DNA of 64,000 nt from assembly GCA_029204225.1 (NCBI GenBank), contig CM055106.1, positions 50,289,325 through 50,353,324 on the forward strand, given 5' to 3'. The position numbers were made by a program, and so were the translations under genes. Shown in pieces: positions 28,701-58,259 of this stretch; position 1 is the stretch's first letter, and the number at the start of each line of letters is the position of its first letter. The stretch is from Diphasiastrum complanatum (Eukaryota > Streptophyta > Lycopodiopsida > Lycopodiales > Lycopodiaceae). The notes under the pieces are model-generated. The model saw only the letters and a program-made list of their open reading frames with translations, was not told the origin of the DNA and made no database searches.

Positions 28701-31700
28701 ACTAGAAGGCTAAAAGTTAGTACATGCCGATAACAGCAATGTATATAAAAAATCCAAATGCCTACACATTGTGATTCTTGTCCTTCAATGAGCTCTCCTC
28801 ATAGTCACTGGTATATGATGAGAAGGATGAGAGTAAGAAAACATCAACACTCTATTCCTGGCAAACCTGCAAGAATCTTAGCAACATATATAATAAAAAT
28901 GATGCACTACAACTTTCAAACAAATAAAAGGGGAAGAGCTTAACATTTGCTTTGTTGACTTTTCTCCACACGCTAATCTAAAACCCTAATAGTATGTCAT
29001 AGCTCAATTTATTTTATTTATTTTTATTTAAAAAAACAAGATTCTTACTCTAGGCGGGGGGCTTGCAAAATAATTGCTTAGGGTCAAGTAAGCTGTTAAA
29101 CAATAAGTCTACAGTGATGAATGGACACTTTCAGGTCCATTTACTTTGCAACCATAAGCAGCTTGTAGACTGTCTGGTTTTAGAAACCAATAATCTGATG
29201 TTCAATGTTTTAGAAATATAGGTTACTGAATGTATTGTGTTATTATTTAGGGCGCAGATGTGTTATGTGCAACTTCATATGCGATTGTTACGAGGACAAG
29301 AAGAGAATAATCCTTGTACAATACAAACATCTGATGCCATTTCAAGTAGCTACACCCTACTTGACAATGCAACTAGAAGCTAAGGTTGAGAAGTCTAAAC
29401 ATGAAATAGGCCAAAATTCGAAATCGAAAAGCAAAATTGAGTGAAAAACATCATGAAAGTATGTCATCTAGAGTGTGGCCCCTCTCCCAGTACATAGAAG
29501 TGTCAAGTCATGGGCTTATGTGCAGTACATCCGATAACAGCAATGTATGTAAAATACCCTAATGCCTAAAAATTGTAATTCTTTTCCTTTGACAAGCTCT
29601 GCTGGTGTATCATGAGAAGGATGAGAGTAGGAAAACATTCTATTCTTGGCAAACCTGCAACAAATCTCAGGAACATGAATACTAAAAATGGTGCAAAAAA
29701 AAAGGGGATTAAGAAAGTGCTAAACATTTGCTTTGTTGACTTTTCTCCACATGCTATTCTAAAACCCTAATAGTATGTCATAATCACCCTCGCTAATTTT
29801 GGCCTCCTGTAGCTCCTCCCCTGTTCCAGAAAAAGTGTGGAACAAAAAAACCCTAAGATCAAGTTTTGGCTTGATTCCTTTCAAAAAGATGTCAACAAAT
29901 CTTTGAAGGTTCCAGGGTGTTGAAACAGTCATTTTAGAATGTTGAGGTCTTGAAACATTGTTTTGGTGCAACTTATCTTCAAATGTGCCTTTGTCGTAAT
30001 ATCAAGATTACTACATTCTCCATAGTTTCCTGTTTTCAAATATCCTATATGACCATAGTAACATGTTCATTAAAGAAAACATCAGTTTTGGAGTTGTGTA
30101 GAGATAAATATACGAACATTCATGGTTGCTTATGTCAAGCGTTGCTAATTACTATTTGGACCATATTGGCAAATTGCTGATTTGCTCTATCCATCAATAT
30201 AATGAAATTTTTTGAAAACACTCTTAGCAGCAACTGCAAATATGTGTTAGCTTCTATGTTGGATTTAAAAGTAGCCAGATTGAACATGCTTTGGCTTAAG
30301 TATGGTAAAACAACTAAACGGGATATAATGCACAATGTGGTGGTGCACATATGCACGAAAGTAATTCTCTTGTAGCACTCCAATGTCAAGCGACTATTAG
30401 TGTCAAAAACATGGACTAGGTTTTGAGATACCTTGGAAGGCAACAAAATCATTGAGTATGAAAAATGCCATATATTCAAGTACAACGATTTCATCCTTTA
30501 ACTTTGACGTTTCCCTAATTATCTATAACTTCTTGTATCCAAGTTTTGCTTAATGGCTAATAAGTTCATCATATGCCAGTTTCTAGTAGATTCAAAATAA
30601 TCAAGACTATTGCCAATCCATTCTTAGTCAAGGAATTTACAGCATGTCATATTTGTTGCATGTCCACTAATATCATATTGTGAAATTTTTTATTAGCCTG
30701 GTTCTTTGCTTATATAAGAAATTAAGAAACACTAGGCCCTAGGGTTTAAAAGATTTTGGAGTTCCTTAATCAATTTCCTTGTGAGCTGATTTTGGAACGA
30801 TACAATATGAATATCATTTTAACAAAATAAATGATTTGATCGCACGTCCTTTGCAATCTGAAATTTCAGCTAGTGTAGATAGCCTTGAGAAATAGCAAAT
30901 TAAAATGCTTGAGTGGCTTAGTTTTAATGTATAGCCCTACTGCATTGAAGATGCTTGACCTTCCAAAATTCAAAATAGTTAACAACGTTACCATGGGATG
31001 TTAATATTAAAACCTTGGCGTTTGCTACTTCTACTACACTGAAGTGGACATGCATCGATCACCTGATCTGCAGACAAGGTGTGGTCGTGTAGCCAACCTT
31101 CCTTCGCCTCACCAACTGACGAAAGTTTACTGTATTTGCTACAAAGTTCTGCTAGAGGCATTTCCCTACAATAGTTCAAAGATACAAAACATAAGCTTAC
31201 AGATGAATCAAGTTGTCATGGACAAAATTTGTATTTAAAAGTACGGGAAAACAAGTACAAAACGATAAGCTCCAAATCAGAGGCTTATAATTAATTTGAG
31301 AGAAGAACCTTAGAGCTTCTCCACTAGGTGGACGGAAGATTCGAAATACACGTGGTAATACACCGAGTCTGAAAATAGCAGATAAACAAGACTTATCACA
31401 AATTTATCCTGAACTCTAATGAGGAGAATAAGTTAGATGAACTATTCTTATATAACTCTAACTTCAAGCAAAGACTTAGGCCCATTGCACTATAATGACC
31501 TCATGATCAGTAAATGAAGTACAATATTTTTGTGTGCATAAAATACATAAAAGATGCTATGTATAAACTATTTCTTGCTATTTCAAACAAGGCAAAAAGT
31601 CAACAACTTATTAATCATGAGAGAGAGAGACAGAGAGAGAGAGAGAGAAAGAGAGAGAAAGAAAGCTTATTAATGTCTTTTTCATGCCAAAAGGCATATA

Positions 31701-34072
31701 AGACAGATAAGTACATATCAAGTATGTGAACCATCTGGGAGCGTATGAAAAACGTCTCCAAAACGAAAAGAAAAGCATATATAATAAATCTCAACAATTA
31801 CCAGTGTTAACTAAACCAAAAGGTATAAAGCAAGAAATGGCTATGTATGATGGAAGCAAGCCGCAGATCATGTCCTCGAGGTGATACTGCTACTGTTGCT
31901 GAAAAAAGATGTACCTGTCGCTTTAGCTTCTTGGAAGGCTTTACGCCTTTTTTCAACCTGTATGTACGTAAGATCATCATCCATATATATGGAGGCCAAA
32001 TCCAAATATGAGAGAGTGTATTCTTGTTGTGGATTTCCGGAAAGCGTTCAACTCTTATCCACGTCATATGCTCATCCAAAGGCTGAGTGACCTTGGCTTT
32101 TCCATTGATACCATATTGGCTATCATGGCACTATATGAGCAAGTTTGGGGATGCTTCAAATTAGATGGGGGTCTCTCTGAGAGAGTTACGAGTACTATTC
32201 GGGTGAAGCAGGGTTGTTCCCTCTCCCCCACACTCTTTGGCTTGTATATGTGATATACTCATTTCCATTCAAGCCTAATAGAAGTTGCCTATCTCATAAT
32301 AAATATAGGACCAATAAGAGTATGTGCAAGTAACTGTAAGATGAAACAATCTCCAATGACCGACTGTCAAAAAGGAGTTCTTGTCTCAACATAAAGCTCT
32401 TAGTTGAAAAACTGAGAGAAGAAGAAGAAGTTTTATTAACGTCTTTTCCATGCCAAAAGGCGTATAAGACGAACAAGTACATCAAAATTGATGGCACCAA
32501 GATGGAGCAATGCTGTCAAAACAACATAACTAAAACCAAAACTAACTAAGAAGAGAAAAAATATCTCTTCATTGCTCTAACTCTCAACCTAAAGCGTCAA
32601 TGAAAGGCTCTCACGCAGGAGGTGGCGCTGTGTGATCAGTTCTGGATGAAGTGACAAAAAAATGTTGTCCATCACGGAATATAACCTTTTTCCCTTTTGA
32701 ATTCGCTTCCTCGATGAGTTGCTTACGATCTTTCCACTGTAGGGCGGTCAGGTCTTCATGGACGAAAATGTTGCAACCTTTAAGACGTCCACGACGCTTA
32801 AGAACTTCGTCTCGATAATCAGTGTATTTGAAACGAATGAATATTACCGAAGTATCGAACTTACTACGCCATGCTGCTTCCACAACATCTTCCTGTTCCT
32901 CGTAAGAGAGTGAAGCTAACATTTCCTTGGCTGCAAGAAGGGGGTCGGTTTCAAGAGAAAAACCTCGGACGCAAACATTTTGGGTTTTATATTCCCTCTT
33001 GCTTTGTTCTTGCATTGCCTGTGAAACCACCATCGTATTCTTTCCTTCCGAGTTCTTGAGCAAGTCTGCCCAAGTTTTGGTCGAAGTTTGGATTTTGTCT
33101 TCCAGGGCTTTGACATGACTAGGATCGATTTGAGAGGTCTTGGCTGTCAACTGTTCTTTGAGGTTTGCATTTTCATCTTCAAGCATCTTCACCTTTTCTT
33201 GTAGAGCGATAATACTGTACGAGTGCTTTTGAAGTTGGATTTCCATTCTGCTTATGATCGCCCACACATCAAAATCCGTCGAGAGACCAAGCAAAAACAT
33301 CTTGATACTCCTTCAATAAATTTGTGAATTTTGCTAACTACAATTGAAACTACGACTTATGCTTCCAAAAATGTCGCTTATTGTCTTCATTCTGCAAAAA
33401 TTGAAATTCTTTGATTCGCATATATTCAAGAGCATACATAGCCAAAGAGCCTATGTATAACTCTGCTGATCCGAAAGGCACGACCTGGAATTTACCCTGC
33501 ATTATGCCCCATCAGAGACATCCTTTCTGCTCGATAGAGAGCTGGGCCCATAACCAAAGAAAGTTGTCCTTGTCCCAAGGTTGCTTCCACTCGTCGAAGG
33601 CGATGCCTACTACGCCTGATAGCATCATGTAATCCACACGCCATGGGAGGGGTTGGTACGGCAGTAGCTGGAGCAATGGTGGGAGTTGGCGGGGTAGGAA
33701 CTTCACTGGAAGTTTTATTGTGTTTCCGACGGGTGGTTACCCACTCAGAATCCATGGTGGCAAAGCCCCGCTGCCCAAATCGCTGTTCAAATTCGCACTC
33801 AGGGAGATTCGTTGCTCAGATCCGCTGGACCATTGCTGTTCAGATCCACTACTCAGATCTGCTGGACCATCACTGTTCGGATCCGCTGCTCAGAGGAGAG
33901 AGTGCAGCACAAGTGCAGCGCAGCTAAGTGCGCATCTCCAGAACAGATGAGCGTGCCCAGCTCGGACCCTGCCCAGATCAGGCCTCGCTGCCAGAGAAAG
34001 CACTAATCGCTGGAGGGGGAGCGCACCAGACTGCCATCGCTGGAGGGGGAGCGCCCTAGGCTGCCATCGCTG

Positions 34073-34143
<71 letters not shown>

Positions 34144-37100
34144 GAGAGAGCACGCTTTATTAATGTCTTTCAAATGCCAAGAAGGCATATAAGACAAAGT
34201 ACATATTAAGTGTGTATAAGGACAACTGCGGGAGCGTAAAAATGTCTCCGAAATTATAAATGCATCTATAAATCTAGAACTAAGGGGAAAAAACCTAGAA
34301 CAAAAGCCTAGATATAAATGTGTCAAAATAGTGATGGCATCATCAAAGCCAAAAGAAAAACTAAAAAGGGTAATAAGAAGAAAGCCGGAAGGCATTCGAA
34401 AATCAGTCCACCCGTTATTTGGACCGATGAACTTAATCAAAGTTTTGAGGCTTTGAAGATGTTAGTGTCTACAGCCCCTATCTTACACATAGTGGACCCT
34501 AGCAGACCTTTCCTGGTGGAAACGGATGCTAGTGACTATGCGGTGGGTGCAGTCCTTTACCAGGAAGGTAGACCTGTGGCTTTCAAAAGCAAGAAGATGG
34601 ACCCAGCTCAAAGGAGATATTCTACTTATGAAACAGAACTTTTTGCTGCCATCCACGCGTTAAAGATTTGGAGACATTATTTGTACGGATCTAAATTCGT
34701 GGTTATGACAAATCACAAGTCTCTTAAGTTTATCTGTGATGCCTCGGACCTTAGGGGTCATAAGGCCCGTTGGTCGTAACTCATTTAGGAGTTCGAATTC
34801 GACAATAAGTATCGTCGTGGTATGTCGAATTGTGTCGATGATGCTTTGAGCCGGATTGGAGAGGTTAATCAGTTATGCTTTGTTGAGTTCAAATATGAGT
34901 TGTATCTTTCTCTGCGAGACATTTGTCGGACCGATGAGTTTTTCGGTCGTATTTGGCAAGGGGTCCTCGCAGGAAGCTCTATTGTGAGAAATAATCTTGG
35001 AAAGCAGGAGCCTACGAAGTCTGCGAAGAGAAGATACTTGTTGATTATTGCATTAGAAATGGTTTACTTTTCTGTAGAGGAAAAGTTTGTGTGCCAGATA
35101 TCGTGGACATTAGGGCCCAAATCCTACATGAGTGCCACGATAGCCCTAGTGCGGGACACCCTGGTATATAGAGGACACTCGACCTTGTTAAAAGAGAGTT
35201 TTATTGGCCAAAAATGAAAGGTCATGTCGAGGCTTAGGTTCAAAGGTGTGAACAATGCCAAGTTAATAAAGCGAAAAGACTCAAAGCAGTTGGTCTATTA
35301 CATCCGTTGGAAAATCCAAGCAAAAAGTGGGAAAGTATTTCCATGGATTTTGTGGTCGGACTTCCCAAGACCGGGAAGGGTCACGATGCCATTTGGGTAG
35401 TAGTTGAAAGGCTTACCAAAATGGCGCAATTTATTCCAACAAAAATCATTGTCAAAACTTCGAAACTTGCTCAACGCTTCGTTGAAAAGTTGTTCAGGTT
35501 GTATGGTTTGCCAAACGATATTGTTAGTGATCGTGATTCCAAGTTCACTGGCAAGTTCTGGCAGGAAGTCTTTGAGAGACAGGAAACTACCTTAAGTCTT
35601 TCGTCTATGGATCACCCAAAAACCGATGGTAGGACCGAACGTGTTGACCAGTCGATGGAAGATATGCTTCGCGCATATGTTTCCACACGACAATCTAATT
35701 GGGAAAAGTACCTCCCAATGGTTGAGTTCGCATACAATAGTATGAAGCATTTTGCCACTGGTTTTAGTCCTTTTATGCTCTTGTAAGTTGTACAGCTTTT
35801 AGCCTCGTTCCCCTATCTCCGTTGGACTCAAAGGTCTCAAGGTACAAGCTGCAGCGAATTTCTTGCATGATATGCAGGAAATGTTGCAAGTGGCTAGGGA
35901 AAGCGTTAGATCGGCTCAGGATCGAGCCCAATTCTATGCTAACCGACCTCCTCAAGAATTTGAGATCGGTGATTAGGTGTATCTTAGAATCCCAAAGGAC
36001 TAAGACACTTCGAACGGGAAAATGTCCGAAGTTATCTCCACGATATAGCGGTCCTTTCAAGGTTGTTAACAAGATTGGTAGGACTGCGTATCGACTAGAA
36101 CTTCATGTTGGAACTAAGGTCCACCATCCTGTATTCCATGTTAGTCGTTTAAAGGAACAACTTGGTGGAAAGGATAACCTGATTCCCACACATAATCTAG
36201 TGCTATTGGAGGATTTGACTGCTTTTACCCCATGAACCAGACAGGATCATGGATACCCAATGTCATCAGCTGAGAAATCGTTTGATTTCTGAACATCTGA
36301 TTCGTTGGAAAGGTAAGTCAAATGATGAGGACACCTAGGAGAAGGAAGATGATTTGCGACTTAGATTCCCTAGTTTTCTCCCATAGAAGGAAATTTTTAT
36401 GGGAGAGGGAATGTTATGTACCATAACGGTACGCCCTTCGTGATGGCTTTGCAAGGGGCATGACGCAGGTTTGATGCCACGCGTCACCATCCTAGGTGGT
36501 CACTTGTCGCCGACAGGACCGTGCTTGATGAAACCCACTATGCTATGCCTATATAGTGGTGGGGCTTCCCTTTTGCCATTCACTCAGTCTACCCGGGAGT
36601 TGGTGGATGGAGAGCACGTGCAATAGCCAGGATGTATCTCCAGGCCATGAAATGTGTGCTAGGGAGAGCCAAGGGCGATGGCTGGTGGTATGGGATGCCA
36701 GTTATCGTAGGAGGCTTGACTAAGAATGAGGATGTTCATAGCTCCAATGCATGGGGATGGGTCGGTAGTGACCCTATGGATGGGCGGATACGGTGTGTCG
36801 TCACCGGTATGGGGTATGCGTCAACCTTCAAGGCAATCGGAGATCTAAGGGAGTTGTAACAATCCTACTGAAAGTTGTGATATGAGTAGTCCCAAAAGAT
36901 GTGTCCAGAGTGAATCGTTGTCGTTGTCGTTGTCGTCGTGGCCTAGACTGCTCAGAAGTAGTAGCATCTTGCGAATCATGAGCGCAACACAACGTGCATC
37001 CACAGAATGTAGTGTGACTTAGTACTTAAATCTATATGTATTTTCTTTATTCTTTTGTTCCATACTTAGTACTTAAATCTATATGTATTTTCTTTATTCT

Positions 37101-37188
37101 TTTGTTCCATACACTCCCATTGATACCACATATATGACATGTACCTTTTTGTCTTATATGCCTTTTGGCATGGAAAAGATCTGAATAA

Positions 37189-37259
<71 letters not shown>

Positions 37260-38208
37260 GATTGGGAAGACCCAAAGTGATGGTCTTCAACACTTCCAAG
37301 AGCTTTATGTTGAGACAGAAACTCCTTGTTGACAGTTGGTCGTTGGAGATTGTTCCATCCTACACTTACTTAGGCATACTCTTTATTGGTCCTTTATTTA
37401 GTATGAGATAGTCAGCTTCTAGTAGGCTTTGGAAGGGTCATGCTTCCCTTGCCCAATTGGAGAGATTTTGTTTCCGTAAGTCTATTGGAGATGCATCGAG
37501 TAAGCATCAGCTTTTTGACACCATTGTTTCCCCTATAGCTCTATATGCAGCAGCTGCATGGTGCATTGGTCTTTATCTCATCTTACTGGGCCAGTATCTC
37601 GCGACTCCAGATCGCTATGCTCACGTATGATTCGGGCTAAGCCTTCAGTTCCACACCAAATCATCCTTCCTGAGCTTGCAGTCCCACCCATGTACCTTGA
37701 TCCCCTACTCCAGCTCATCACTTATATACAGCAAGTCAGTGTGTTCCAAGCTTCTAAGCAGAGATATACGCAGGCTGCTCTCATTTCATCTCAGCATGGC
37801 ATGCAAGTGTTGTGGCAGCACAATGAGATATGAGTCCACGGAAGATCCTAAGTTGACAAGAGCAAACATGGGACCCAAGGCAGGTTCTAGGCACAATGGC
37901 AAAGCTGCGGGCAAGGATGCAAATGGCCAAATTTAAAGGTTCAGCCCTCAAATAATAGACATATACTAACGCTGACCAAGCACTTGATCAACATACATTG
38001 AGTCAACACTTGATCTCCAACAACAGTTTTTGGAATAATCTTTATGGTGGTGTGATCATAGTGAAATAATAATCAGTGACATGATCAAGAACAATTCTCC
38101 CTCTGTGTGTTCAACCAGAAGAATTGTATGATGATCAGGAGAGTAATCACGTATCAACAAGGTCTGCCGCACTAACGCTCGACGATCAACCTAGCACTTT
38201 AGAAGAAT

Positions 38209-38262
<54 letters not shown>

Positions 38263-38558
38263 GAGAGAATGTCTATTATGTCCACAATGGGGTTTCCAAG
38301 TTATAAAATAAAAAGCTACTTTTTTTTTGTAGGTTGAAACAAAAGTTCATGCAGGTTTAGATGTTTATTGTGGAGAAGAAAGAATTCGGTTCTGATATGC
38401 TCATTCTGATCATATGTAGGGTGCTGCAGCAGCATTTACTTCATCTTCAATCTCTTTCGAATTAGGCATTTTTGTTTAGACCTGCTGATTCTACCACTTA
38501 AAACTCTGATTCTGCAGATAACATGATGCTTGACAACTGGCACGGGCTCTTACAGGTG

Positions 38559-38614
<56 letters not shown>

Positions 38615-41600: not shown

Positions 41601-43418
41601 GTATTCAAGTATGTACGATGGACTATCTTTCATGTACTATAGCTTATAAGTTATGATCAATCATGATTCATGTAAATTGTTTATCCCCCGGGCTCCACCT
41701 CCATTGTTGAGAGATTTACGTTGTTGGACTGAATGTGCCAAATTACTCTACACCTTTCCCACTGATCCGATTGTTATATCTCCTCGTCCCTCCACCTTCT
41801 CCTTTTTCACCCCTGCTATGGTCTCTCTTGCCACTAAGAAAATGAATACCCATCGAGCTCAAGACATCGAGGACCTAGCCAAACTCCTGAATCATGCCAC
41901 TGATATACTTGTGCCCGTATTGGCCTCACTCCTTAATTAGGCATCATTTCTGGCTTTCCCCTTCCATGGTGAACTAATATCATCTATCCCATTCACAAGA
42001 GTGGCGACGCATGAGACCTGATAACTGTCTCACCATTATGATCGGTCACATTGTGGCTAAACTCTATGGCACTATCCTTCAAACTGATCATGTGTTCACA
42101 CTTCATGCTATCATTGAGGAAGCCAAGTCTAAACATGAGAGGGTCTATTGTTGTTTTGTGGACTCTGGAAAGCATTCAACTCTATCCCGTGTGATATTCT
42201 CATCCAGAGGTTGAGAGATCTTAGTTTTCCACTAACAGCAGGCTTGGGGATGTTTCAGATCAGAGGAGGGTCTCTCTGAGAGAGTTAGGCGTACTATATG
42301 ACCCCCACAATCTTTGGCTTGTATATTGATGAGCTTGAGAAAGCTATCAACCAAGATGGTGGTGTTGGCTACAAGCTTGGTGATATACTCATTTTCATTT
42401 TACTTTACGCTAATGATGTGGCATTACTTTCCTCTTCTGGTGAGGGGTTCCAGAGGCATTTATTTTTGGAGATGTATTTGGTTTGATTGTGCATACCAGG
42501 AAAACCCAGATCATGATTTTTAAAATCTCCTTTATGAACTGGCAAGTGTTCACTCTAGGGGGACAACCACTTGAGGTCCTTATACTTATTTGGGGACTTC
42601 CTTCACTGGTCCTACTTTCAATATGAGACACATCGACACAGCCACACTATGTAAAGGTCATGCTTCGTTGGTTAGTCTTAGCAATTTTGCTTCAAGAAGC
42701 ACATTCGAGATGCCTCGAGTAAGTGTAACCTGTTTGACACTAATGTTACACCCACATCTATGTATGTAGTGGAGGCTTGGTGCACTGGGATTTCCGAGTC
42801 AGAGTGGACTAGTATCTCTCATCTACAGATTAGTATGCTTGCACTCCGGGCCAAGCCATCCGTTCCTCACCAAATTATACTTGCTGAGTTTGTTGTCATA
42901 CCACTTTGGGTTGATGCTATTTTCAGGTTGATTACATATATCCACAGAGTGATGGGTCTTCTAGTTTCACAATATCCACGTATGGACACCATGACTCCTA
43001 GACCCAAATTACCTCCTTTTTTTCTACGCTCCAAAGTAGACATTGAGGCTGATATTTTGTCAAAGGATGAGTCAGACATCCCTTGTCAGGATCTTCATCA
43101 TAATTGTCGATAGTGTATTGCATCGTAATTGCCGATGGTGTATCAGTACCGTCATCTTCATCTATCCTTGCTTTCTTCGAAGAAGGTCCTTCTATGACAT
43201 GATCTATCATATAGTTTTTTACATGACATCCCATTGTATCATGTCTCAAACTTTCATGTCTTGAGAGCAAAGTAGAGATTTTATCTAATCTTGATAGGCT
43301 AATCATTTTATCTAGTAGTTGTTTGTTATGCAAATATTTATATCCTCCTTTTCGTATTTATCATACTTGAGATGTACTTACTTGGTCGTATATGCCTTTT
43401 GGCATTAAAAGACATTAA

Positions 43419-43506
<88 letters not shown>

Positions 43507-46500
43507 ACCTCCACCATCATTTATCTCAGCTACGTTCACCGAGAGCCGTTTGCGAGAGAGAAAGGCTCTCAATGTCCGAGTCAAAGGTATTACGAACTCC
43601 CATGATGCTGTTGGTGAAGCTAAAAAGTTTCTTGAAGAGAGTTTCTTGAAGAGAGTCTTCAACACCACCACAAAGATATGGATACTGCATGGCGGCCTAA
43701 GAAAGATCCAGGTACTCTTCTCATACGTTTTTCATCTACAACTGGTCGTCATGAAGTGTTAGGGAAGGATCTACACGGCGGGGCACCACGATATACCTGG
43801 ATGAAGACCTTACGTTCATTCAGGTTCAAGAACGGAAAAAAGCAAAACAGGAGGCTCTAACGAATGGAAAGAGATTGATCTACAGAGATGGTATCATTCG
43901 CTTTGTAGATATTAAACCTGTTGCTATTAATGAGATATCCGAGATTGTTCAGAGTTAGTGAGAGAGTTAGAGCACTGAAGAGATGCCAGTTGAATCTGTA
44001 AATGGTCTTTGTACCATATAATCCTAGATATTATCCTCTTCTTAGTTAGTTTGGTTTTTAGTTATGTTGTTTGACGGCATTGCTCCGTGTAAGTGTCACC
44101 TGTTTGATACCATGGTGTAATAGATCCTAACACCACAGTAAGGCCAACACTAACTGATCCACCCAACCTTGCCTACTCCCTGATATAGAGTAAGCCCCTC
44201 CTAGCCCAGTGTGAGTGTTGAAGAGTAATGCCTATTTTACCCCTTTGGCTAAGCATTAGTTAAGTTGTACATAACTCATGGGGCATGTTTTAATTAAATG
44301 CATGAGACCCCCTTTTGTAAGTTATGTAAATTAGTGCAAGTGGCCCACTTGGCCAAGTAGCTCACTCCTATGGTTGACACCTAGACTTTCCATGCATGTA
44401 AAGGAGGTGCTTGCCTCACAAGGGATTTGGAGGACCCACGCCCTCCTCTCTCTCTCTAGCAATTCATTTCTTCTTGAGACTTTTGAGTTTGTGAGGTGCT
44501 CATGCAATTCTCCTTGTGTGTGATATTTTCCATAGCCAAGTTTCTCAAGCTTTCATAGTTGATCTAGCATTTGAGTTAAGATACTCCATAGCTAGGTCTC
44601 ATAAATTTTCATGGTATCAGAGCAGGTTGTCTAGCCTGTGAGTCCGTGAGTGAGAGAAACTTCAGTGCTTAGATTCTTGAGAAGATTCTCATCTTCTACA
44701 AGCACCTCAATCTTGAAAGAGGGAGCATTTGATCTACAGGTGTCAGATCAGGTGGAGTCTTGCACTGTTGGAGAGCTATTGGCAAGGGGAGTGGGATGAT
44801 CCAAAAACTTTCTAAATTTGGCTAAGTTTTGGGGAGTCTTTCTGGAGGAGCTTACACAAAAGTAGGGCGCACTTTCTATAGGGGCTTCTGGTTTCTGTTC
44901 CAGTGGGGCCTAGTGCTTGTGCTAGTGAGGCCACACCAAGTGGCAAAGACAAAAGCAGGAGCTGAAGGGTTGCCTTGAAGTGGCTACATACCCTAGTTTG
45001 GGGTTAAACCCTTGTTGCTGGAAGTTGGTCTTTTCTGATCTTTTTCAGGTTGAGCTTCTGTTTAAGCACAGATTTTAGCATGGCTAGTCTTGGGGAGAGT
45101 TTGCTGGGTGAATCTAGCAAACTAGATGGCACAAACTACAGAGTGTGGAAGTTCAAGATAGCTAATATCTTGATGGATAAGAATTGCTGGGAGGTCATGA
45201 TAGGTACAGAACCTGTACCAACATCTGATCCTGAATTGAAGGACTACATGAACAGGAGACAAAAAGCTCATAGGATAATCAATCTTTCTGTCAAGGACAA
45301 TATTATTCCTCACATTTGCAATGCAAGGGATGCAGCTGATGCTTGGACAATTCTGAAGTCTATGTTTGAAACAGTGGATTCAGCCAAGCTGGTGTATTTG
45401 CAAAACAGGTTACATACTCTCAAGATGGAAGTAGGTGCAACATTGGTGATCATATTACAAAGGTCAAGGACCTAATGGATCAGCTTGCTTCAGTTGGAGA
45501 GAAAGTAAGTGACAGGAGTATTGTTCCCATAGTCTTGAACAACTTGTCATTCAACTATCAAGACTATGTGATGTCCCTTTCTGCTAGGGAGAAACTCCCA
45601 ACCTTTGGGGAGTTATGTGGTCTTCTTTTACAGGAGGAGATGAGAAGAAAGAATCTTTCTGAAAGGGAAGATAATCCAGAGCTTGCATTTGCTTCTAAGA
45701 AGAAGCAAAACTTTCAGAAGAAAGGCAAAGGCAAAAAGAAGAACTCAAAGCAAAGCTTGGAGCAACAGGTGTCCAAGTTACAGGTTGGAGAGGAGTCAAG
45801 CACCAATTCCTCATCTACACCCAAGAGGAAGGGCAACTGCAACTATTGTGGTAAGTATGGGCATTTTGCCTTTGAATGCAGGAAGAAGCAAAGTGATCAG
45901 AAGAAGGGAAAGAACCAGTAGGGTCACTTTGTTGACAAAGTTGCAGAGGAGGAGCAATCTGGTGTGCTTGAGCTATTCACCGCAGCCCTATCATCTGAAT
46001 CCACATTTGGTGGATGGTACATTGATTCTGGAGCCTCAAAGCACATGACACCTCATAGAGATTGGTTCAGCACCTATGAGGAGACAGAAGATGGTCAGGA
46101 TGTTTGCCTTGGAGATAAATCTACACGTATGGTGAGGGGCAAAGGCACAGTTGCAATACAGCTGTCATCAGGTGAGGTGAAGGAAATTAAAAGTGTGTTG
46201 CATGTACCAAGGTTGGCTAAGAACTTGCTATCTGTTGGTGCCATTACCAAACATAACATGGTGATAGAGTTTAATGATTCTAAATGTTTGGTAAAAGACA
46301 AAGATCAGAACTTCAAGGTGGTAGCCAAGGGAATACAAGAAGGAGGTCTTTACAAGCTTTTCACAACCATTCCTAGCCAAGAGGCCTTGTCTGTAGGAAA
46401 TCAAAGTGCCAAGATCCTTCTAACATTCAATCTCCATATACAAGAAGAAGAAAAAGAGGAAGAAGAAGAAGAGGGAGAGGGTTAGGCGCCCTCAAGGAGA

Positions 46501-49500
46501 GAGAAAGTAGTAGCAATGCTTGAAAGGGAATGAATAACAAATGAACAAAGAGTACATATAAATAGGCCTTCCAAGGGCCTAGACTCTTCCAAACTCTAAG
46601 TTCTAGAACCTTCCAAGACCCACTACTAATTATAGGGCACCCCCAAAAGTCAAGATAGGGTCCCTTAACATAATTAGACTTTACTTGGACCCACGAATTA
46701 CTACTGGACCAAAATTGGGTCCAACTCAACTAAAACTGACTTAACATGGTCTAAATAATAAACCTAACCCATGGTTACACAAGTCTCGACCTTTTGGGTC
46801 AAAGTAACCTATGGGAAACTATCATTATCATTTATTACTTCTAACACCCTCCTTAAATGATAATGTAAAAAACATAACATGACATGAAGTATGAAAAATT
46901 GCAACAAAAATGCAAAGTGTTGCATGCTGCCCAAAACTCCATGTAGCCGAAAAAGAAAAGATGTAGCTTGCTGTCCAAGCTTAATGCCGCCAAAAAAAAA
47001 CTTCAGCTTGAAGTAGTCGAAGTAGCCGAAATCTCAGCCCCAATCATGCCCGATGTAAAAGAGATGTAGAATACGAAGTGCGGTAGCATCAAGTCGAAGA
47101 GTGAAGACAAGCATGCTCCATCCAAAGTAGGTAACCAAAAAACCAGCCACAAGCCGAAATATGGATTTGCAATCCATCAATGGTTCCCACATGATTCCAT
47201 AAGTCTTCTTACCACAAGAAACATAAAGAAGAGTATGATACTCTTTTACCATCACATCCTCCCGAATCTTACTATCAATGATCTGCTCACCAACACTAGG
47301 TAAGACAACACCGTCATCATAAGAATTAAGCATCAAAACATGAAAATCAGAATACGGTACTGATTTTGGTGAGGCATGTGTGTTTCCTCCAAGGTAAAAA
47401 GATGCTTTGCTATCCCGCAAAGACTCGGACAACCAACAAGAGGCTGTAGTAGGCTGTCCAACAGCCACAAAATCACCAACACTTTGCTGTCCAAAGTGTT
47501 CCAAATGTGGACCTTGCTGTCCAAAAACCTTCTGCAGGCCGTTCCCAATGCATAATAGGATGCTCACGATGTAACATAGGCTGAAAATGATCAATAAACC
47601 ATGGCTAAATCTGGTGTCCACCATCTTCAAGAAAAAAACCAATAGCTTGCCACTTTGAACACCCAAAAAATCCAGCAACACGCCACTTTGAACCAATGTA
47701 CTAATTGACATGATTTTTTCCCCTCCTCCATTAGTACAAAATGGCTTCAAAGAATGCTTGATTTCAGCCTTTTCCAAAACATTATCTTGAGAAGCTTGCT
47801 CATAAAGTTCTTCACTAATGCATCCATCATTTGCAACAAATGGCTCAAGAGAAGAAGAATGCTTTACCATACCAACATTCTGATGCAAACTTGTACTTGT
47901 AAAAAGACAATGATCAAACTTTGCATGACTTTGCTCTTCTACCTTCAAAGAGGATGAAGTAGAGAGGAAAAAGCATGATGATGAATCCTTTATTCGGTAC
48001 ATCTTTAAAAGTGTTTCCCAAGCACTTTTAGAGGTCTTGCAAAATCTCAAATGATATAAGATAGATCTTGTTACCGATAAAATCTGGATTATCACGTCGA
48101 TGCAAAATCTCAACTTGCAACTCCATGAAGAATAGTTGGTGCCATCCAACATATCTTCACCTGAACAAGTACGAATTGCTCCCAAATCTCTTGCCATAAG
48201 AACCAGCCAAGAAGATAAACTTTTTCAAACCCTAAATGTGCCCTAAAAGACACAAAAACCAGCAAGTATCAAATCTGACAAATCAGCACCGGAATGTGTC
48301 GAAACCACACATTAGATGGATGTAGGAACTCGCCCTCCTACAAGCCTTGTGTGCTGAAAATTTCAGCCTGAAATTGCATTACAAACTCAAAAACCACCAA
48401 GCAAAGAATCAGGTTAGCCTCCAACAAAGCTTTTTTCGGAACCCTTCTTTCTTGCCAAAAAGTGTGAACAATACACACGGATAGGGCTGTTGCAACACCC
48501 TACAAATGGTAATATGCTATCCAATTTTCAGCCTCGGAATGTGATCGGATCATCACAAAAAAATTAGCGACTTCTTCCACACCTGGAAACAAGCAAAAAG
48601 AAGCGGATCTTCACTTTGTAAAATCAACAAGAGTGCTGATTTTTCAGCCAAATCAGAAGAATAGAAATTGCTTGTAGATGGGCGCCCTCCTACAAAAGAG
48701 CAAATCTGAAAAATAGGGCAGCAGCGGACCAACGGAAGTAGGATAAACCTACACGGATGTGGGCGACCTAAAAGAAGCCCCGAAGAAGATAATTAATGGC
48801 GCCTTCCTGCAACCTGAAAAATCAGCAAACAACAACCTGATTTTTTAGCGCCCAAAATCCTACGAATTTCCTCCTCTAACTCTTTCTGAGAAACTAAGAG
48901 AATTTTCCTATCCTCTGATAGCTTTCTCTACTGCTGCTACTAAGCTCCCTAGGATGGAGATGGCTCTGATACCAGTGTAATAGATCCTAACACCACAGTA
49001 GGGCAAACACTAACTGATCCACCCAACCTTGCCTACTCCCTGATATAGAGTAAGCCCCTCCTTGCCCAGTGTGAGGACTGGTAGCATGCAACTGCCAAGT
49101 GTCAGCCACGTGTCACTGACGTGGCCGACTGCACGTCGGGGCCCAACTGGGGGCCCTGTCTTGCTGACAAGGTCCCTAAACTGTGTTAGGCCCGCCATGG
49201 CTATGGACCGTGCTGGGGCACACTACTCACACTGTCTTGCCCTGTTGGTCGTGTACGCAGGACCCGACCCTGACCGTGGTATTTGACCTATCTGTGTTCT
49301 CTAGGGTTCGGCACTGGTCACAAGCTCATAACACATGGTCACACTGACAGTCATGTATGTTGCAGAGACTTGGTGTCGGATCTCACTTTCTCTAAGTGGG
49401 CCGATATATCTCCTCTGCAGATTACTATGCTTTCACACATGATTCGAGCAAAACCTTCTGTCCCTCACCAGATTATACTTGCAAAGTTTGCAATTCTTCC

Positions 49501-50267
49501 ATTACAGGTTGAGGCTATTTTTCAGATCGTTACTTTCCTCCAGAGACTGAAGCAGATGGATAGTTCCAAATATTCCTATGTTGCACTTACCTCATCACAA
49601 TCACTCCACAGCCAGGGTTTGCACCTCTCATGGTTTTCTTAGGCAGGAAGGCTGCTTGACTACATCGGAATTTCACACATCACTATATTCAGCAGTTTCA
49701 ATACAAATCATATACACATAGAGGTTGGGAGGGACAGCTTGGAATTAAGCCCCTCTACTACAGATCCATCTTTATGGAGACCGACTGTACAAGTTGATAT
49801 CTACACGTAGAACTATCTTCCATAGCAAATTGCTGGAGAACTCTTGGCCTGCTCCTGTGCTCCTGGCCTGCGCCAGCCATGGATACGGAATGGGTCACCA
49901 CACGCCGAAAAGGCAACAAACAACCATTGTCTTCACCATCACCGTCATCGCCATCTTCTACTCCCTTCAAGGATCTTTGCGACATTTTCTAGTCACCCCA
50001 TCCGGAACTCATCACTCAGTGACGCCTCCTACGTGAGAGCCATATAGTCAATGTAATATTTTTAAATTGTATTTAAAGTTGCCTCCTGCGTGAGAGCCTT
50101 AGGTTGAGAGTTAGAGCACTGAAGAGATATTTTTCTCTTCTTAGTTAGTTTGGCTTTAGTTTTGTTGTTTTGACGGCATTGCTCCATCTTGGTGCCATCC
50201 ATTTTGATGTACTTGTTTCGTCTTATATGCCTTTGGGCATGGAAAAAGACGTTAATAAAGCTTTCTT

Positions 50268-50337
<70 letters not shown>

Positions 50338-52219
50338 GCCACTCTCCTCAATTCCGCCGTTGTCTCTGATTTCCCCTCATCCTGGTGCACCAACATCATC
50401 CACCCTATTTATAAAAATGGTGATCCCATGATTCCTGGTAATTACCGCACCATCATGATCGGACATGTTCTCACGAAGCTCTATGGTACCATACTACTAG
50501 TCTGCAGTGAGTTCAAAGGTGGAAGCTAGGAGATTACATGCATTGGGGTAGGCAGGTTTCTGATCTCATTATTCTACCACTGACCATATTTTTACACTTC
50601 GAGGTTTGATTGAGGAAGCTAAGTACAGGAAAGAGAGGGTCTACTACTGTTTTGTGGACTTTAGGACAGCCTTCGATTCTATACCACGCTCCCTGCTCAT
50701 TCAGAGACTTCGTGACCTTGATTTCTCCACATATATTGTTCTAGCAGTGATGGCTCTTTATGAGAAGGTCTTGGGATGTTTCCGACATGGCAGTGGCCTA
50801 TCTGATCACATTTGGAGCACCATTGGGGTGAAACAGGGATGTTCTCTTTCAACAGTTCTCTTTGGATTGTACGTTGATGAGTTAGAGCGAGTCATCTCAC
50901 AGTGTGGCGGGGGTGGCTGTAGACTTGGCACCATTCTGATTGCTATTTTCCTTTTTTGCAGATGATGTAGTACTAGTATCCCTGACCATAGAAGGTTTAC
51001 AGAGACAGCTGGACTGTTTCCATGAATTTTGTACCAGATGGGGATTGGGGGTGAACACTGCGAAGACCAAGGTTATGGTCTTCAACACTTCTCGAGCCTT
51101 CATGCAGCGCCAGCTCCCCCTCCTGCTTTTGCCTCTTCCTCGTCTTCATCGATCTGGCCATCCCTACCAGCCTCCTTCCTACCCCTATTTCCCAAGAATC
51201 CACGACCCCCCCATCTACAGCACCTGTCATGCCCATGACTGGTCTCGGATAGCGTGTCCACGCTAGGGACCGGTAGACCAACAACCCGTAAGTTAATTGT
51301 GACTATAAGGGAATTGGGGCCCTTATGTGTACATGGCCATAATTAATGGTTGTAGGCCTAAACACATGGTGGTGGAGTTGGTATGGGTCTATCAGGTTCA
51401 CAATCGGTTCGTTATTATGCTTTTCGAATTAGTTTCTTGGAAGGAATTCCGTGTCAATTCTGTTGTTGTCGATTACTCTGTGGTTAGCATCTTTGTAAAG
51501 CAACGGTTACTTTATTGGTTGCTGGTTTTTTCCCTACAGTCTCTTATTCTTATTATGAATGGTTATTGTATTTTTACATGCTATCTATTGCCTATTTGGA
51601 AGCCGGTTTGGTTTAAATCGGTGGGAATAGGTTGGAATAGAAGCAAAAATACTCTAACCGGTTGGCCGTTGAGTATTGGTGATGTTTGACAGGATTGCAA
51701 GGTTGCTTACTGTGGAATCTCAGGTTTATGCTTCATTTTCCAGCAACCTAACAGTTTGTTTGCAGGGTTAGGAGCCTGTAAAGCCATTCTGGAGGATGGT
51801 TGGGTTCAGATCTGATGACAATTTGTTAAGTCATTGATTATTGTAATAGCCTGCAAAACTAGGTTTTCTGGAAATTTTGGCAACATAACATCTGTTTTTC
51901 AAGTATAGTAAAAGAACAAACCCTGCAAAACTGGTTTTGAAACATTACTTGTGCTTAAGAGTAATCAGAGTAAAGCAAAGGAACTGTAAAACGTTGTGAA
52001 AGCAATTGAATCTGCAAAAAACAGCAGACTCTTTTGCCTTCTTGCTTCCCGCATGTAAAAGTTGAAAAACTTGAGGAAAAACTCAGAAAACATGTTGTTG
52101 AATCCGTTTGTTGCTCTCCTCCTGGGCGCCCTGATACCTATAGCTAAAACCTTTGTCATAAGGGTGCAAAAGGGGCGCCTCTCCTCATTTTCTCCTCCCA
52201 CCCGATTGCGCCCACAGGT

Positions 52220-52279
<60 letters not shown>

Positions 52280-55200
52280 GTGGATCCGAACGCTTTCTGG
52301 CATCGGGTGTTGAAGCCCGAGAAAGGCGCGTGAGGGGTCCGGGTAGCCTGTGTGCAGGTAGCCCGAGGTGAGGAGAAGGAAGGGGGGGGGGGGGGGGGGG
52401 GGGGGGTTTGATAATTGGTTACTTTATGAGTTTTTTACAAACTTGTAGATTTTTTCACAGTTTGGGAGTTTCCCAGATTTTATGAAACTCTTGATTTATT
52501 TTGCAGTCATTATATAAGCTAACAGTTGTTAAGTGATTTACGCTACATTCACGGTTAATTCCGGTTTTTTATTGCTTAGCACCCATTTGCCGATTCATTG
52601 GTATAATTTGTAAATGAAAGCACATATGGTCTGTAAATTGGTTTTTTGTAGACATTGCTTGGTTCAGTAACTATTATACCCGTAATGAATGTGTTAACTG
52701 AACGAAATTATTTTTTGATTTTCAGTTGGCAAGCAAATGGATACTGATGGAATTTTGGAGCGGGGGTGCTACCGAGATTCACCCGGCATCACCAAGAAGT
52801 GATGGGGGAAATACGGAAATTCAGTCGGCCTCACCCGGCAGTGATGACACCCTAGACTCAGAAAAACTGTTGCAAACTTTAGGCAAGGCAGTTTTAGAAC
52901 TTCATCAGAGCAATAAACAACGGGATAAACAAATGCAAAATCTATTTAATCAACTGCAAGCTATTAACTCTAACAACTTGGGCTACCAACCGGAAATATT
53001 TTCTGGCGATAAAAAGTTTAAACGCTCGGAAGTTGTTGAAGATTGGATAAACCGTTGGACAAGCTATTTTAGCTTGCATAACGTCCCAGAAGATAAACGA
53101 ATATCATCGATTCTATTTTTTCTGGAAGGTAAAGCCTCTTCTTGGTGGAGGGAACTTTCCACGAAACCGGTGACTTGGGCTGGATTCCTGACGGAATTCC
53201 GGAGAGCTTTTGTCACGATAGACGATTCCGAGCTGTATATTTGGTTTATCAACTGCAAAATGGGCAGTCGAGAACTGGACGGTTATGTCCAAGAGTTCTT
53301 GGACTCTTTGGCCAAGGTACCGTTGTTTGATCGTAAGTTGGCACAATGGCAATTTATTGCCAGACTGCCTGCCGACTGTCAAAATGAATGCAAATGAAAT
53401 ATCCTTAACTCACTAGAGGATATGCTATCCGTGTGGCGAAAGCCTATGATAGTACAGTTGTTGCATCACGGCCAAACGGCCCCGAAACAAGAAAAATCTT
53501 ACAAGTGTAAAAAGCAGTTTTTTGACGAGCTGGAAGCAGAAGCGTACCAACACCCAAAGAAGAAGAAGAATAAGAAAAAACTGGTGGTCAAAGACAAAGC
53601 ACAGTTGGCGGCGCTTAAACAGAATCTGTGTTTCCTCTACAATAAACCCGGGCACCGTGCCAAACAGTGCCCCGAACGGAAAGCAAAGTCGTCAAGTTTC
53701 ATGACTGTGGATTTACCGGCAGGTAAATTGGAAGTCAATTTGTTGAATAAGTGTGACTGTACTTGTAACTTTAGTGCACTTTCTTTTAAGCCTAATGAAT
53801 TGTTTCGTGTAAGAGGCAATATTTTAGGGGAAGACGTGAATGTGCTATTTGATTCAGGTAGTACTCACAATTTTTTGAATTCTCGACTTGTGCAGAAGCT
53901 CCGAGTGCCCACCATGGCCAATGATCACCGTTACGTGGTCTGTCTTGCCTCAGGGTCGGACACTGAGATTTGGGATGTCAAAGTCTCCAATTTAGAGCTT
54001 TGGATGCAAGACTATGTTGAGCCGTTGGATTTCCATGTCATGAATTTGGACCGAACTGATGTGATTTTGGGCTATGAATGGTTTTTTAGCAAATCAAACT
54101 CTTTAGAGATAGATTTTAAAAATCATTCTATGGTATTTAAAGATAAGTTTGATCATATTGTCTCTATTTCTGGAGAGACCGATGTACTTCCATCACCGAT
54201 GACTTCCTCGGCTGAATTAAGACAAGAGAAGCTTTATGCGAAAGAATCAAAGTGCGAATTCTTTAAGAAGGAACTTCTTTACCTTGGTCATAAGATTACC
54301 TCCTTTGGAATCAAGATTGACGAAGAAAAGGTGAAGACGGTAGTGGAATGGCCAATCCCTAAAACAGTGCGTGAACTTAAGTCGTTCTTAGGTTTCACTG
54401 TGTTTTTCCGTAGATTTGTAGAGGAGTCGGTATATCAAAGGCTCATCTAATCAGTTGGCTGATGCACTTAGTCGAATTGGTGAAGTGAACGAACTTTCCT
54501 TCACTGAGATCAATACAAACTTTTATCTCTCCCTGAGAGGTCTTTATGAGAAAGACCCACATTTTGGACCAATCTGGAATAGGGTTCTAGTAGTTTCATC
54601 AAGCGGGACTGATAATCATGGTGGTCAATTTGGGGGGAAGGATATAAAGGGTACTGATGACTTCACTATCGGTAATGGACTTTTGTTCAGGAAAGGGAAG
54701 GTTTGTGCCTGATGTGGATGTTGTTGAGAATAAAATTCTTTATGAATGACTCACCATGCGCAGGACATCCCGGCATACGTCGTACATTGGATTTGGTACG
54801 AAGGGGTTTTTATTGGCCAAAACTCAAGCCCTTTGTAGAATCTTATGTGGTCAAGTGTGACCAATGCCAGTTGGTTTTGTTGATGCTGACTGGGCAGGAA
54901 ATGCAGAAGATAGAAGATCGACTACAGGATATGCATTTAATCTTGGAACAGGAACTATATCTTGGAGTAGTAAAAAGCAACCAACAATTGCTTTATCTTC
55001 TACAGAGGCAGAGTACAGGGCTACTACATCAGCAACTTTGTGAAGCAATTTGGTTACGAAGGATTCTAAAAGATCTTCATATAGAACAAGTTGAACCTAC
55101 AATTCTATGGTGTGACAATCAGAGTTGTATACAGCTTGCAAAGAATCCAGTGTTTCATAGCAGGTCAAAGCATATTGAAGTTCAGCAGCATTTTATACGA

Positions 55201-56863
55201 GAAAAGTTACAAAGTGGTGAAGTAGAGTTGATCTACTGTGACACCAATGATCAAGTTGCAGATATCTTCACAAAAGGACTTGGTTGTGAAAAATTAGGGA
55301 AGTTCAGGACTCTCCTAGGTGTTATTGATAATCAATTATCCATTAAGGGGGAGTGTTAGAATTAATGGTTAATTGTAGAGGCCAGCCTGCGTGCTAGAAG
55401 GCCTATTTCTATTTTTAGTATAGGTACTATCTATTTTTAGTATAGGTACCTAAGTTAGTACCAATTTTGATAGAATAGTATAGAAATCTATTTTAACCAA
55501 GTTAGCATAGATTTCTATTGTTAAGACTTCATAACTAGCATTTCAATTGCTATTGTAGTAGAATAGCTTTTGCTTTTCATTGTGGACAGCCTCTATAAGA
55601 GTAGATGGGCGCCCACCTCCATTGTTATCTCAGTTTCCAGCTTATGAAGCATAGCTTCTTGCAGTCTCTTTTCTTCTTCAGCTTGTGGTTGATGTTTTGT
55701 GTGAGTACTAATAAGATTAGTCTACTCCGATTAGAGAATCTCTTCGATTCTAACAGATTAGCGGATCTGAAACTGGCAGCGAGAACCTGGGTGGGACTAA
55801 GCATGGATCTGAGCAGGAGACTGGCGCAGATCTGAGCAGGACCTATCTGAGTGGGCTGTCATGGATTCCGAGTGGGTAACCACCAGCCGGAAAGGCAAGA
55901 AAACTTCTAGTGAAGTTCCTGCCTTGCCAACTCCCACCATTGCTCCAGCTACTGCCGCACTAACCCCACCTACTGCCACGTCCATGGATTTTGATGTGTG
56001 GTCGATCATAAGCAGAATGGAAATCCAACTTCAAAAGCACTCATACAGTATTATCGCTCTACAAGAAAAGGTGAAGATGCTTGAAGATGAAAATGCAAAC
56101 CTCAAAGAACAGTTGACAGCCAAGAACTCTCAAATCGATCCTAGTCATGTCAAAGCCTTGGAAGACAAGATCCAAACTTCGACCAAAACTTGGGTAGACT
56201 TGCTCAAGAACTCGGAAGGAAAGAATACGATGGTGGTTTCACAGGCAATGCAAGAACAAAGCAAGAGGGAATATAAAACCGAAAGCGTTCGCGTCCGAGG
56301 TTTTTCTCTTGAAACCGACCCCCTTCTTGCAGTCAAGGAACCGTTAGCTTCACTCTCTTATGAGGAACAGGAAGATGTTGTGGAAGCAGCATGGCGTTGT
56401 AAGTTTGACAGTTCGGTAATTTTCATTCGTTTCAAATACACTGATTATCGAGACGAAGTTCTTGAGCACCATGGACATCTTAAAGGCAGCAACATTTTTG
56501 TTCATGAAGACCTGACCGCCCTACAATGGAAGGAACGTAAGCAACTCATCGAGGAAGCGAATTCAAAAGGGAAAAAGGTTATATTCCGTGATGGACGACA
56601 TTTTTTTGTCACTCCATCCAGAACTGATCACTCACCGCCACCTCTTGCATGAGAGCCTTCCATTGACGATTGTTAGAGATTGTTCAGAGTTAGGTTGAGA
56701 GTTAGAGCACTGAAGAGATATTTTTCTCTTCTTAGTTAGTTTGGTTTTAGTTATGTTATTTTGAAGGCATTGCTCCGTCTTGGTGCCATCCATTTTGATG
56801 TACTTGTTCGTCTTATACGCCTTTTGGCATGGAAAAGACGTTAATAAAGCTTCTTCTTCTTCT

Positions 56864-56930
<67 letters not shown>

Positions 56931-58198
56931 ACATACCTAGGTGTGGTATTTTTTGGTCCCACTTTCAGCATGCAACAGGCGGCATTTTCCTGGCTACGGA
57001 AGGGTTATGCATCGTTGGTAGATTTGGAGAGATTATGTTTCAGCTCACATGTTAGAGATGCGACTAGTAAGTGCCGACTCTTTGACACTATGGTCGTTCC
57101 CTCAGCTCTATACGCATCAGAGACATGGAGTACTGGCTTGACGGCCACCGAGTGGGCGGGCATCTCACGACTTCAGATTCATATGCTCTCTCAGATGATA
57201 CGAGCTAAGCCCTCTATCCCACATCATATTATATTGGCAGAGTTTGTCGTCCCCACTATTCAGATAGAGGCACTGTTCCATATTGTCACATTCATACAGC
57301 GCTTGGAGGATCTCCAGGGTAGAGGCACACACTATGCTGTAAGACTTTGTCGTCCTCCGAGCACCTACACTCTGAGGGACATTCCTTTTCGTGGTATTCC
57401 CAGGCCTGTCGTCTCCTCTCCACATTGAGTATTCACATTACGGATCTACTAGCTGGTACTCATCAGTATATTAGAGGATACCTATACAGAGCATATCTTC
57501 AGAGCACTTGGCATGATTCATCTGGGGTGAAGACGGAGTTTTATCGGGCACATTTTCTATCCCAGGATCCTGCTGGATATCCCATTGTACCCAGATACCT
57601 AGTGGACAGTATCTCACACAGACTGCAGATAGTGATGGGTCAGTTCCGGGTTTCCTCTCACCAATTAGCCGTTGAGACTGGCAGATACAAGGGCATCCCG
57701 AGAGATGCGCGGATTTGTAGTATGTGTGACCTACATGATATAGAGGATGAGTTCCATTTTCTCTTCAGATGCCTAGCTTACTATGAGATTCGAGGGAGAT
57801 AATACCTGCTTGTTTTGAGATCATCCACTTGCACTCTCTACCTTGGTATCATATGAGGACTCCAGATGTGTTGCGTTGATGATACGGGAGATGATAGACT
57901 TGCGTATGGCGAGTCTTGACGTTGACACCTCCCCCTTGATACAGCTGAGCATATAGGAGTGTCTATCCCGCCGGAGACAGAGGCAGGAGAGTAGTGATTC
58001 TGATGGAGAGGCTGAGATTCCAGATGCCACCATACATAGACGGCAGGGACAGTGTCGTCGACCAGAGAGACAGCCAGCCCATAGGCTAGCTTCACGACAG
58101 CATAGACACCACTGATCATCCACTCGACGACAGAGAGATATACCTTTTTTTCAGTCCTATGTACCTTAGGGTATTCCATGGACATTAATAAAGATCTT

Positions 58199-58259
<61 letters not shown>

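Follow-up and report, generated by a model that had tools for sequence, protein, structure and literature searches.

The window analysed here is a 64,000-nucleotide stretch of the 1.745-Gb genome of Diphasiastrum complanatum (contig CM055106.1, positions 50,289,325 to 50,353,324). It contains eight 3' ends of a long interspersed nuclear element (LINE), the 3' end of which has 5,408 close copies genome-wide. These copies probably represent a large family of non-long terminal repeat (non-LTR) retrotransposons with an APE-type endonuclease, composed of full LINEs and of half-LINEs that carry only open reading frame 1 (ORF1), which end in a common hairpin and insert with a strong preference into (TC)n microsatellites. 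A first-pass annotation of the window had proposed insertion into (TC)n, and the target preference is well supported by an excess of TC at the 5' junctions of copies and by their stacking in one direction.

TC tracts at the 3' and 5' ends

Six tails in duplicated loci were removed from 91 non-identical tails, leaving a sample of 85. This sample is mostly a selected one (loci L001-L030 were picked by similarity to a window copy and L031-L060 by their exact 3' end). TC of at least 20 bases follows 52 of the tails and TC of 10-19 bases another 10. Other runs of at least 20 bases were found after two tails for AC and after none for GA, AT or GT, and the frequencies at random positions in the same pool were 1.7% for TC and 1.9% for GA. 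Twenty-four tails go straight into TC with no TTTC or TTC part. (TTTC)n tails continue into at least (TC)5 within one pyrimidine run in 16 cases and (TTC)n tails do so in seven. In a further 18 tails of these two types the run contains no (TC)5, and 20 are of other kinds (two with at least (TC)5, 18 without). Because both (TTTC)n and (TTC)n tails lead into (TC)n, the latter is better regarded as the target than as the tail. On the forward strand of the whole genome, AATAAAGC is followed by (TC)6 within 15 bases at 2,697 places, against nine for the reversed control. TTCTAA-like units were also seen to close the tail, ahead of the TC tract, in L071, L003 (tail at 122, plus strand) and L044 (tail at 626, plus strand).

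The 5' side, which the first-pass annotation had itself proposed as a discriminating check, was assessed in 69 copies whose 5' end was in view, with 16 copies at locus edges left out. Alignment chains were stopped at any tract of four kinds, and TC, GA, AC, GT and AT runs were masked in the self-comparison. Since alignments thus end at repeat runs of every kind, the other repeats serve as controls. In 15 copies the start lies -2 to 10 bases beyond a tract of at least (TC)6, compared with 26 of 3,450 control positions further upstream (0.75%), so that starts directly after (TC)n are about 29 times commoner than at control positions. The corresponding counts among the 69 copies were zero for GA and two for AC, GT and AT together. 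Five of the 15 preceding tracts stand behind the tail of another copy according to a script, and four more do so on reading (L029_1582, L030, L044_804 and L050). The other six copies have no recognised LINE tail before the tract (L031, L043, L051, L052, L053, with a short tract of 16 bases, and L070); L031, L051, L053 and L070 among them are two-sided. By eye, the flanks upstream of the six tracts show no relation to the LINE. As no tail is recognised ahead of these tracts, the 5' junctions are best interpreted as insertions into (TC)n that was already present. In the long copies L064, L065, L066 and L068, 4.3 to 4.8 kb separate the tail from the nearest TC tract upstream, a distance that a start at TC would produce; with their variable leaders, these copies are outside the count.

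Head-to-tail stacking and alternative explanations

Among 59 tails with at least (TC)5, the next LINE piece within 60 bases lies on the same strand in 18 cases and on the opposite strand in one. In two of the 18 (the leaders of L064 and L066) the reference matches its own locus. Control windows contain a same-strand LINE start in 110 of 1,406 cases and an opposite one in eight, and the one-way strand bias extends across the neighbourhood.

The (TC)n might instead belong to the element itself, as a 3' tail that slippage has lengthened; there would then be no special targeting, and the neighbours would be chance nestings in a region rich in repeats. LINEs commonly end in simple repeats, which would favour such an origin, as would the 24 of 85 tails that go straight into TC and the frequency of LINE pieces in the sampled loci, seen in the same-strand starts of the control windows. 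However, TC is also found at the 5' ends, far above the control level and with six tracts behind no recognised upstream tail, and in 18 tails of the (TTTC)n or (TTC)n type (TC)5 is missing from the pyrimidine run. Slippage of the tail is thus already weakened by the 5' junctions, and we consider it unlikely. Recombination among (TC)n tracts, or segmental duplication, could also produce stacks, and the apparent duplicate loci L009/L010, L017/L018 and L033/L036 are of the kind that it would leave. Such a process nevertheless needs copies that already begin at TC, and it explains neither the copies bordered by TC at both ends in unrelated surroundings nor the starts at many different residues; it is improbable. 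Template switching, in which the reverse transcriptase (RT) jumps between RNAs and a stack is a single insertion event, is likewise improbable. Same-strand chains (18 to 1) would be expected from it, and the succession of an ORF1 tail and an RT piece at three places in the window (32.4, 50.3 and 56.9 kb) speaks in its favour. It predicts neither long (TC)n between pieces nor two-sided copies without an upstream tail, and two stacked pieces carry different 3' hairpins (56852 and 58194).

Anatomy of the element and its 3' hairpin

As read by eye, the copy in L066 has its leader directly behind (TC)32; next come ORF1 (473 amino acids), an ORF2 that opens with an APE endonuclease and from which most of the RT is gone, the C-terminal part, a 3' untranslated region (UTR), a tail and short TC. 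The APE endonuclease was recognised in L066 (PF03372, 1e-10) and the RT domain in L065 (RVT_1, 7.7e-30). A single frame of 731 amino acids in L062 contains an endonuclease match just under the cut-off, followed by RVT_1 (1.7e-27). With this order of domains in ORF2, the element is an APE-type non-LTR retrotransposon. It also has the second hallmark of LINEs, 5'-truncated copies with a single common 3' end. The RT sequence matches the PDB chains of R2 (3.5e-22) and LINE-1 ORF2 (3.1e-13), matches that do not place its clade, and its matches in NCBIfam were below the cut-off only. A sequence search revealed no relative of the L066 endonuclease among solved structures. The C-terminal pieces contain a CCHC knuckle (by eye) and a weak zf-RVT match under the cut-off. 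RNase H gave no match in three C-terminal pieces of ORF2, which are pieces and not an intact full-length ORF2. An element with a restriction-like endonuclease (RLE) was rejected as a candidate because an APE domain was found; no RLE motif was seen by eye, the only way in which it was sought.

The half-LINEs are ORF1-only copies (55861-56852 and 32430-33312 in the window), as expected of a non-autonomous partner. The window half-LINE ORF1 is 30% identical to the full-LINE ORF1. Half-LINE and full LINE have the last ~55 bases of the 3' end in common, an estimate based on a blastn comparison in which the half-LINE 3' region matches other tails only at its positions 147-202; upstream of this end the two UTRs diverge (by eye). 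The AlphaFold model of the window ORF1 was poor (mean pLDDT, the model's per-residue confidence score, of 47) and confident for a long helix only. A three-sequence ORF1 profile found nothing significant in PDB (best E 0.3, mostly coiled coils), and ORF1 had no Pfam match above the cut-off. Any likeness to L1 ORF1 therefore rests on reading of the alignment.

The common 3' end has the form GTCTTAT-stem-loop-stem-AAAGAC. RNA folding of four subfamilies gave z scores of -4.4, -3.6, -2.9 and -1.5, and for the last of these 15 of 200 shuffles folded equally well. The hairpin frame occurs 7,620 times genome-wide, against once for the reversed control. Stem pairing was examined in one fixed frame in 100 listed rows of the 7,620, 52 of them distinct. 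Pairing was complete in 74 of the 100 rows, with the stems ATGCC/GGCAT (47), GCACC/GGTGC (10), GTGCC/GGCAC (6) and GTACC/GGTAC (5), besides a small number of G-U variants. Among the 52 distinct hairpins, 215 of 260 cells were paired, a value reached in none of 2,000 shuffles (mean 196.5, maximum 207), although the sequences are related and hence not independent. Four fully paired stem versions, with compensatory changes in both arms, point to a genuine RNA structure. In the hairpin at 58.2 kb (58155-58194), the outer stem is altered to GTCC/GGAC.

Strength of the preference and a model of insertion

Several observations weigh against insertion into (TC)n as a general account. TC of fewer than 10 bases follows 23 of the 85 tails. 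In an unselected stretch (the first 10.46 Mb of contig C1), the TC motif comes directly after 16 of 49 hairpin tails. This is a lower bound, as the motif used (AATAAAGC, up to 15 bases, then (TC)6) misses longer TTTC or TTC tails and altered AATAAAGC. On the 5' side, 54 of the 69 copies do not begin exactly at (TC)6, and an earlier version of the test, in which chains were allowed across tracts and stacked copies were lost, gave nine of 67. For L031, only 110 bases of flank are present before the locus edge, and these open with TTTC repeats, so there may be an older tail upstream. Tails without (TC)5 also reach LINE pieces (seven on the same strand, none opposite, n = 26); since they do so often, stacking is not confined to TC. 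A strict hairpin was found within 60 bases in only three of 100 tracts (the first 100 T-starting tracts of at least (TC)12 on C1), and the copy in L066 lacks most of its RT. When 400 bases upstream of the first ten listed TC tracts of C1 were read directly, a tail preceded two of them.

TC targeting is thus a preference and not a strict rule, and next to most TC tracts no copy is recognisable with the strict hairpin. The first-pass annotation had expected most copies to have (TC)n on both sides, which goes too far: TC of at least 10 bases follows 62 of the 85 mostly selected tails, the unselected count under the stricter motif is that given above, and the 5' side shows TC in 15 of 69.

The preference could arise as follows. 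In a TC/GA tract, the endonuclease would nick the purine strand (GA). Just past its hairpin the RNA has a pyrimidine tail of (UUUC)n, (UUC)n or (UC)n, which would pair with the opened strand, and reverse transcription would begin at this pairing, with the RT presumably recognising the hairpin. Many copies are truncated at the 5' side, and the far end would be attached within the tract or next to it. Tail and tract are both strand-specific, so that further copies entering the same tract would point one way and head-to-tail stacks would result.

Organization of the window

All eight 3' ends noted in the window were found by blastn, with tails ending near 31667, 32430 and 34154 on the minus strand and near 37190, 43422, 50263, 56852 and 58194 on the plus strand. 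One of the blastn searches recovers seven of them, the eighth (58194) having a variant hairpin. Pyrimidine endings had been described for all eight. Seven tails indeed adjoin long (TC)n/(GA)n tracts of 44 to 82 bases, whereas that at 32.4 kb is weaker than described, with about (TTC)4 and four bases of TC. Six tails are followed by a LINE piece in the same orientation, and RT copies begin at different residues (tblastn and self blastn), both as originally reported: 2EN residue 521 at 50337, 4RTC residue 351 at 37259 and 4RTC residue 383 at 56926.

On the minus strand, a 5'-truncated LINE 3' end with hairpin (34154-34294) is separated by a (TC)n tract (34076-34150) from a half-LINE leader and ORF1 start that directly follow the tract (33646-34075; blastn match to 55860-55970). 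Further along lies a half-LINE (32430-33312) with ORF1 (32614-33312), 3' UTR, tail and then (TTC)4 and short TC. An RT fragment (32271-32405) starts directly after this TTC/TC tail and matches the sequence from 37298 onward (37298-37429 in blastn). The last tail of this group is a LINE 3' end with hairpin (31667-31728, blastn), after which come a (TC)n tract (31619-31662, 85% perfect) and sequence without a LINE match. The first-pass annotation had overlooked an RT stretch (31991-32198, plus strand; self blastn and tblastn) that is inverted relative to the surrounding copy, inside the piece from 32.4 to 31.7 kb. An RT piece with an inverted neighbour (31991-32405) is a pattern that twin priming could leave.

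On the plus strand, a LINE 3' end with hairpin (37139-37190) is followed by a (TC)n tract of 34 units (37191-37258) and a 5'-truncated RT copy that starts at the tract (37259-37685; tblastn, self blastn). Downstream of RT remains at ~42083-43000, another LINE 3' end with hairpin (43371-43422) leads to a tract of 41 units (43423-43504), at which a 5'-truncated ORF1 copy with a half-LINE 3' UTR starts (43505-44108). A half-LINE remnant with 3' UTR and hairpin tail (49980-50263) runs through TTTC and (TC)n (50264-50336) into a 5'-truncated RT copy (50337-51105, 3' limit approximate) with RVT_1 in 50564-50959. The half-LINE ORF1 at 55861-56652 encodes 263 amino acids with a coiled coil, and its C-terminal part aligns to the full-LINE ORF1. 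Its 3' UTR and hairpin tail (56653-56852) are followed by (TTC)n and then (TC)n (56853-56925, the (TC)n at 56867-56925) and by the 5'-truncated C-terminal part of an ORF2 (56926-58194) with a CCHC knuckle and the variant 3' hairpin. A (TC)n tract (58195-58254) follows this tail, and the sequence beyond is not LINE-like by eye.

A single long element with an internal repeat was rejected as a candidate, as the RT pieces start at differing residues and the piece at 56926 has its own, different tail. Chance nesting was rejected on the genome-wide junction count and the 5' junction excess. As a further correction to the first-pass annotation, TC tracts of at least 50 bases at 38209, 38562 and 52221 have no tail recognised by eye on their 5' side. 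A run of 25 G (52382-52406) lies near the (CT)28 tract at 52221-52277, which lacks a recognised LINE tail. Elsewhere in the window, a direct repeat of ~110 bases with 95% identity (44105-44215 and 48967-49075) flanks copia-like gag ORFs (45008-45921, by eye) and perhaps represents LTR ends. An ORF at 891-1379 resembles what we take to be part of a plant P-type calcium ATPase.

Possible co-expansion of LINE and TC repeats

T-starting (TC)12 tracts number 73,535 genome-wide, against 8,815 A-starting (AC)12 tracts. When the tracts are counted by their final T or A instead, with the patterns reversed, there are 39,876 for TC and 18,204 for AC. Long TC tracts are thus two to eight times commoner than long AC tracts, depending on how the tract ends are counted. 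The element and its target might multiply together, the LINE building its own landing sites. Each insertion into (TC)n would leave TC after the tail and sometimes another tract before the copy, and tracts would regrow by slippage and then receive the next copy. Co-expansion would fit the genome's excess of long TC over long AC. Because the ratio of TC to AC varies with the counting of tracts, we regard it as a tentative and rather doubtful proposal.

The preference for (TC)n would extend microsatellite targeting by LINEs to plants. The thousands of copies would allow the study of target choice by APE LINEs, of the division of work between hairpin and pyrimidine tail, and of the use of the common 3' end by ORF1-only partners. 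They suggest a possible route by which a retrotransposon may spread a microsatellite, and vice versa.

Comparison with known systems

The nearest known analogues appear to be LINEs of the Tx1 clade in fish. Kojima and Fujiwara (2004) reportedly described Kibi and Koshi of this clade as specific for (TC)n and (TTC)n. An APE endonuclease and a TC or TTC microsatellite target would be common to these elements and the Diphasiastrum element. In contrast to them, the latter resides in a plant, has a preference that is not strict and has ORF1-only partners. Nearly all copies of (TC)n-specific Tx1 elements are said to lie in (TC)n, whereas here the proportions are 16 of 49 in the unselected stretch (a lower bound) and 62 of 85 in the mostly selected sample. 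The first-pass annotation was aware of no microsatellite-targeted LINE described in land plants, and a narrow search of the open-access literature found no (TC)n LINE from plants.

Target-specific Tx1 elements are described as encoding an APE-derived endonuclease, the Togen families of fish as (TG)n-specific, and some HERO families as targeting microsatellites (PMC4640811). Togen and HERO resemble the present LINE in having a microsatellite target, but their endonuclease is restriction-like, while that of the Diphasiastrum LINE is APE-type (PMC4640811). Plant L1 elements with RNase H, as presented there, are similar in APE, RT and a C-terminal zinc knuckle (here the weak zf-RVT match), whereas the Diphasiastrum LINE differs in its TC preference, its 3' hairpin and the lack of an RNase H match in the three C-terminal pieces tested (PMC4640811). 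A review states that plant and human elements often have surrounding microsatellites as landing pads (PMC12477314). The nearest plant parallel found is SaTar, described as Mutator-like elements (MULEs) that are associated with microsatellites and form multimeric arrays in guayule and rice (PMC5907723). SaTar and the Diphasiastrum LINE are alike in forming linear arrays with microsatellites. However, SaTar elements are non-autonomous MULE DNA transposons that move without reverse transcription (PMC5907723), whereas the Diphasiastrum LINE encodes an RT.

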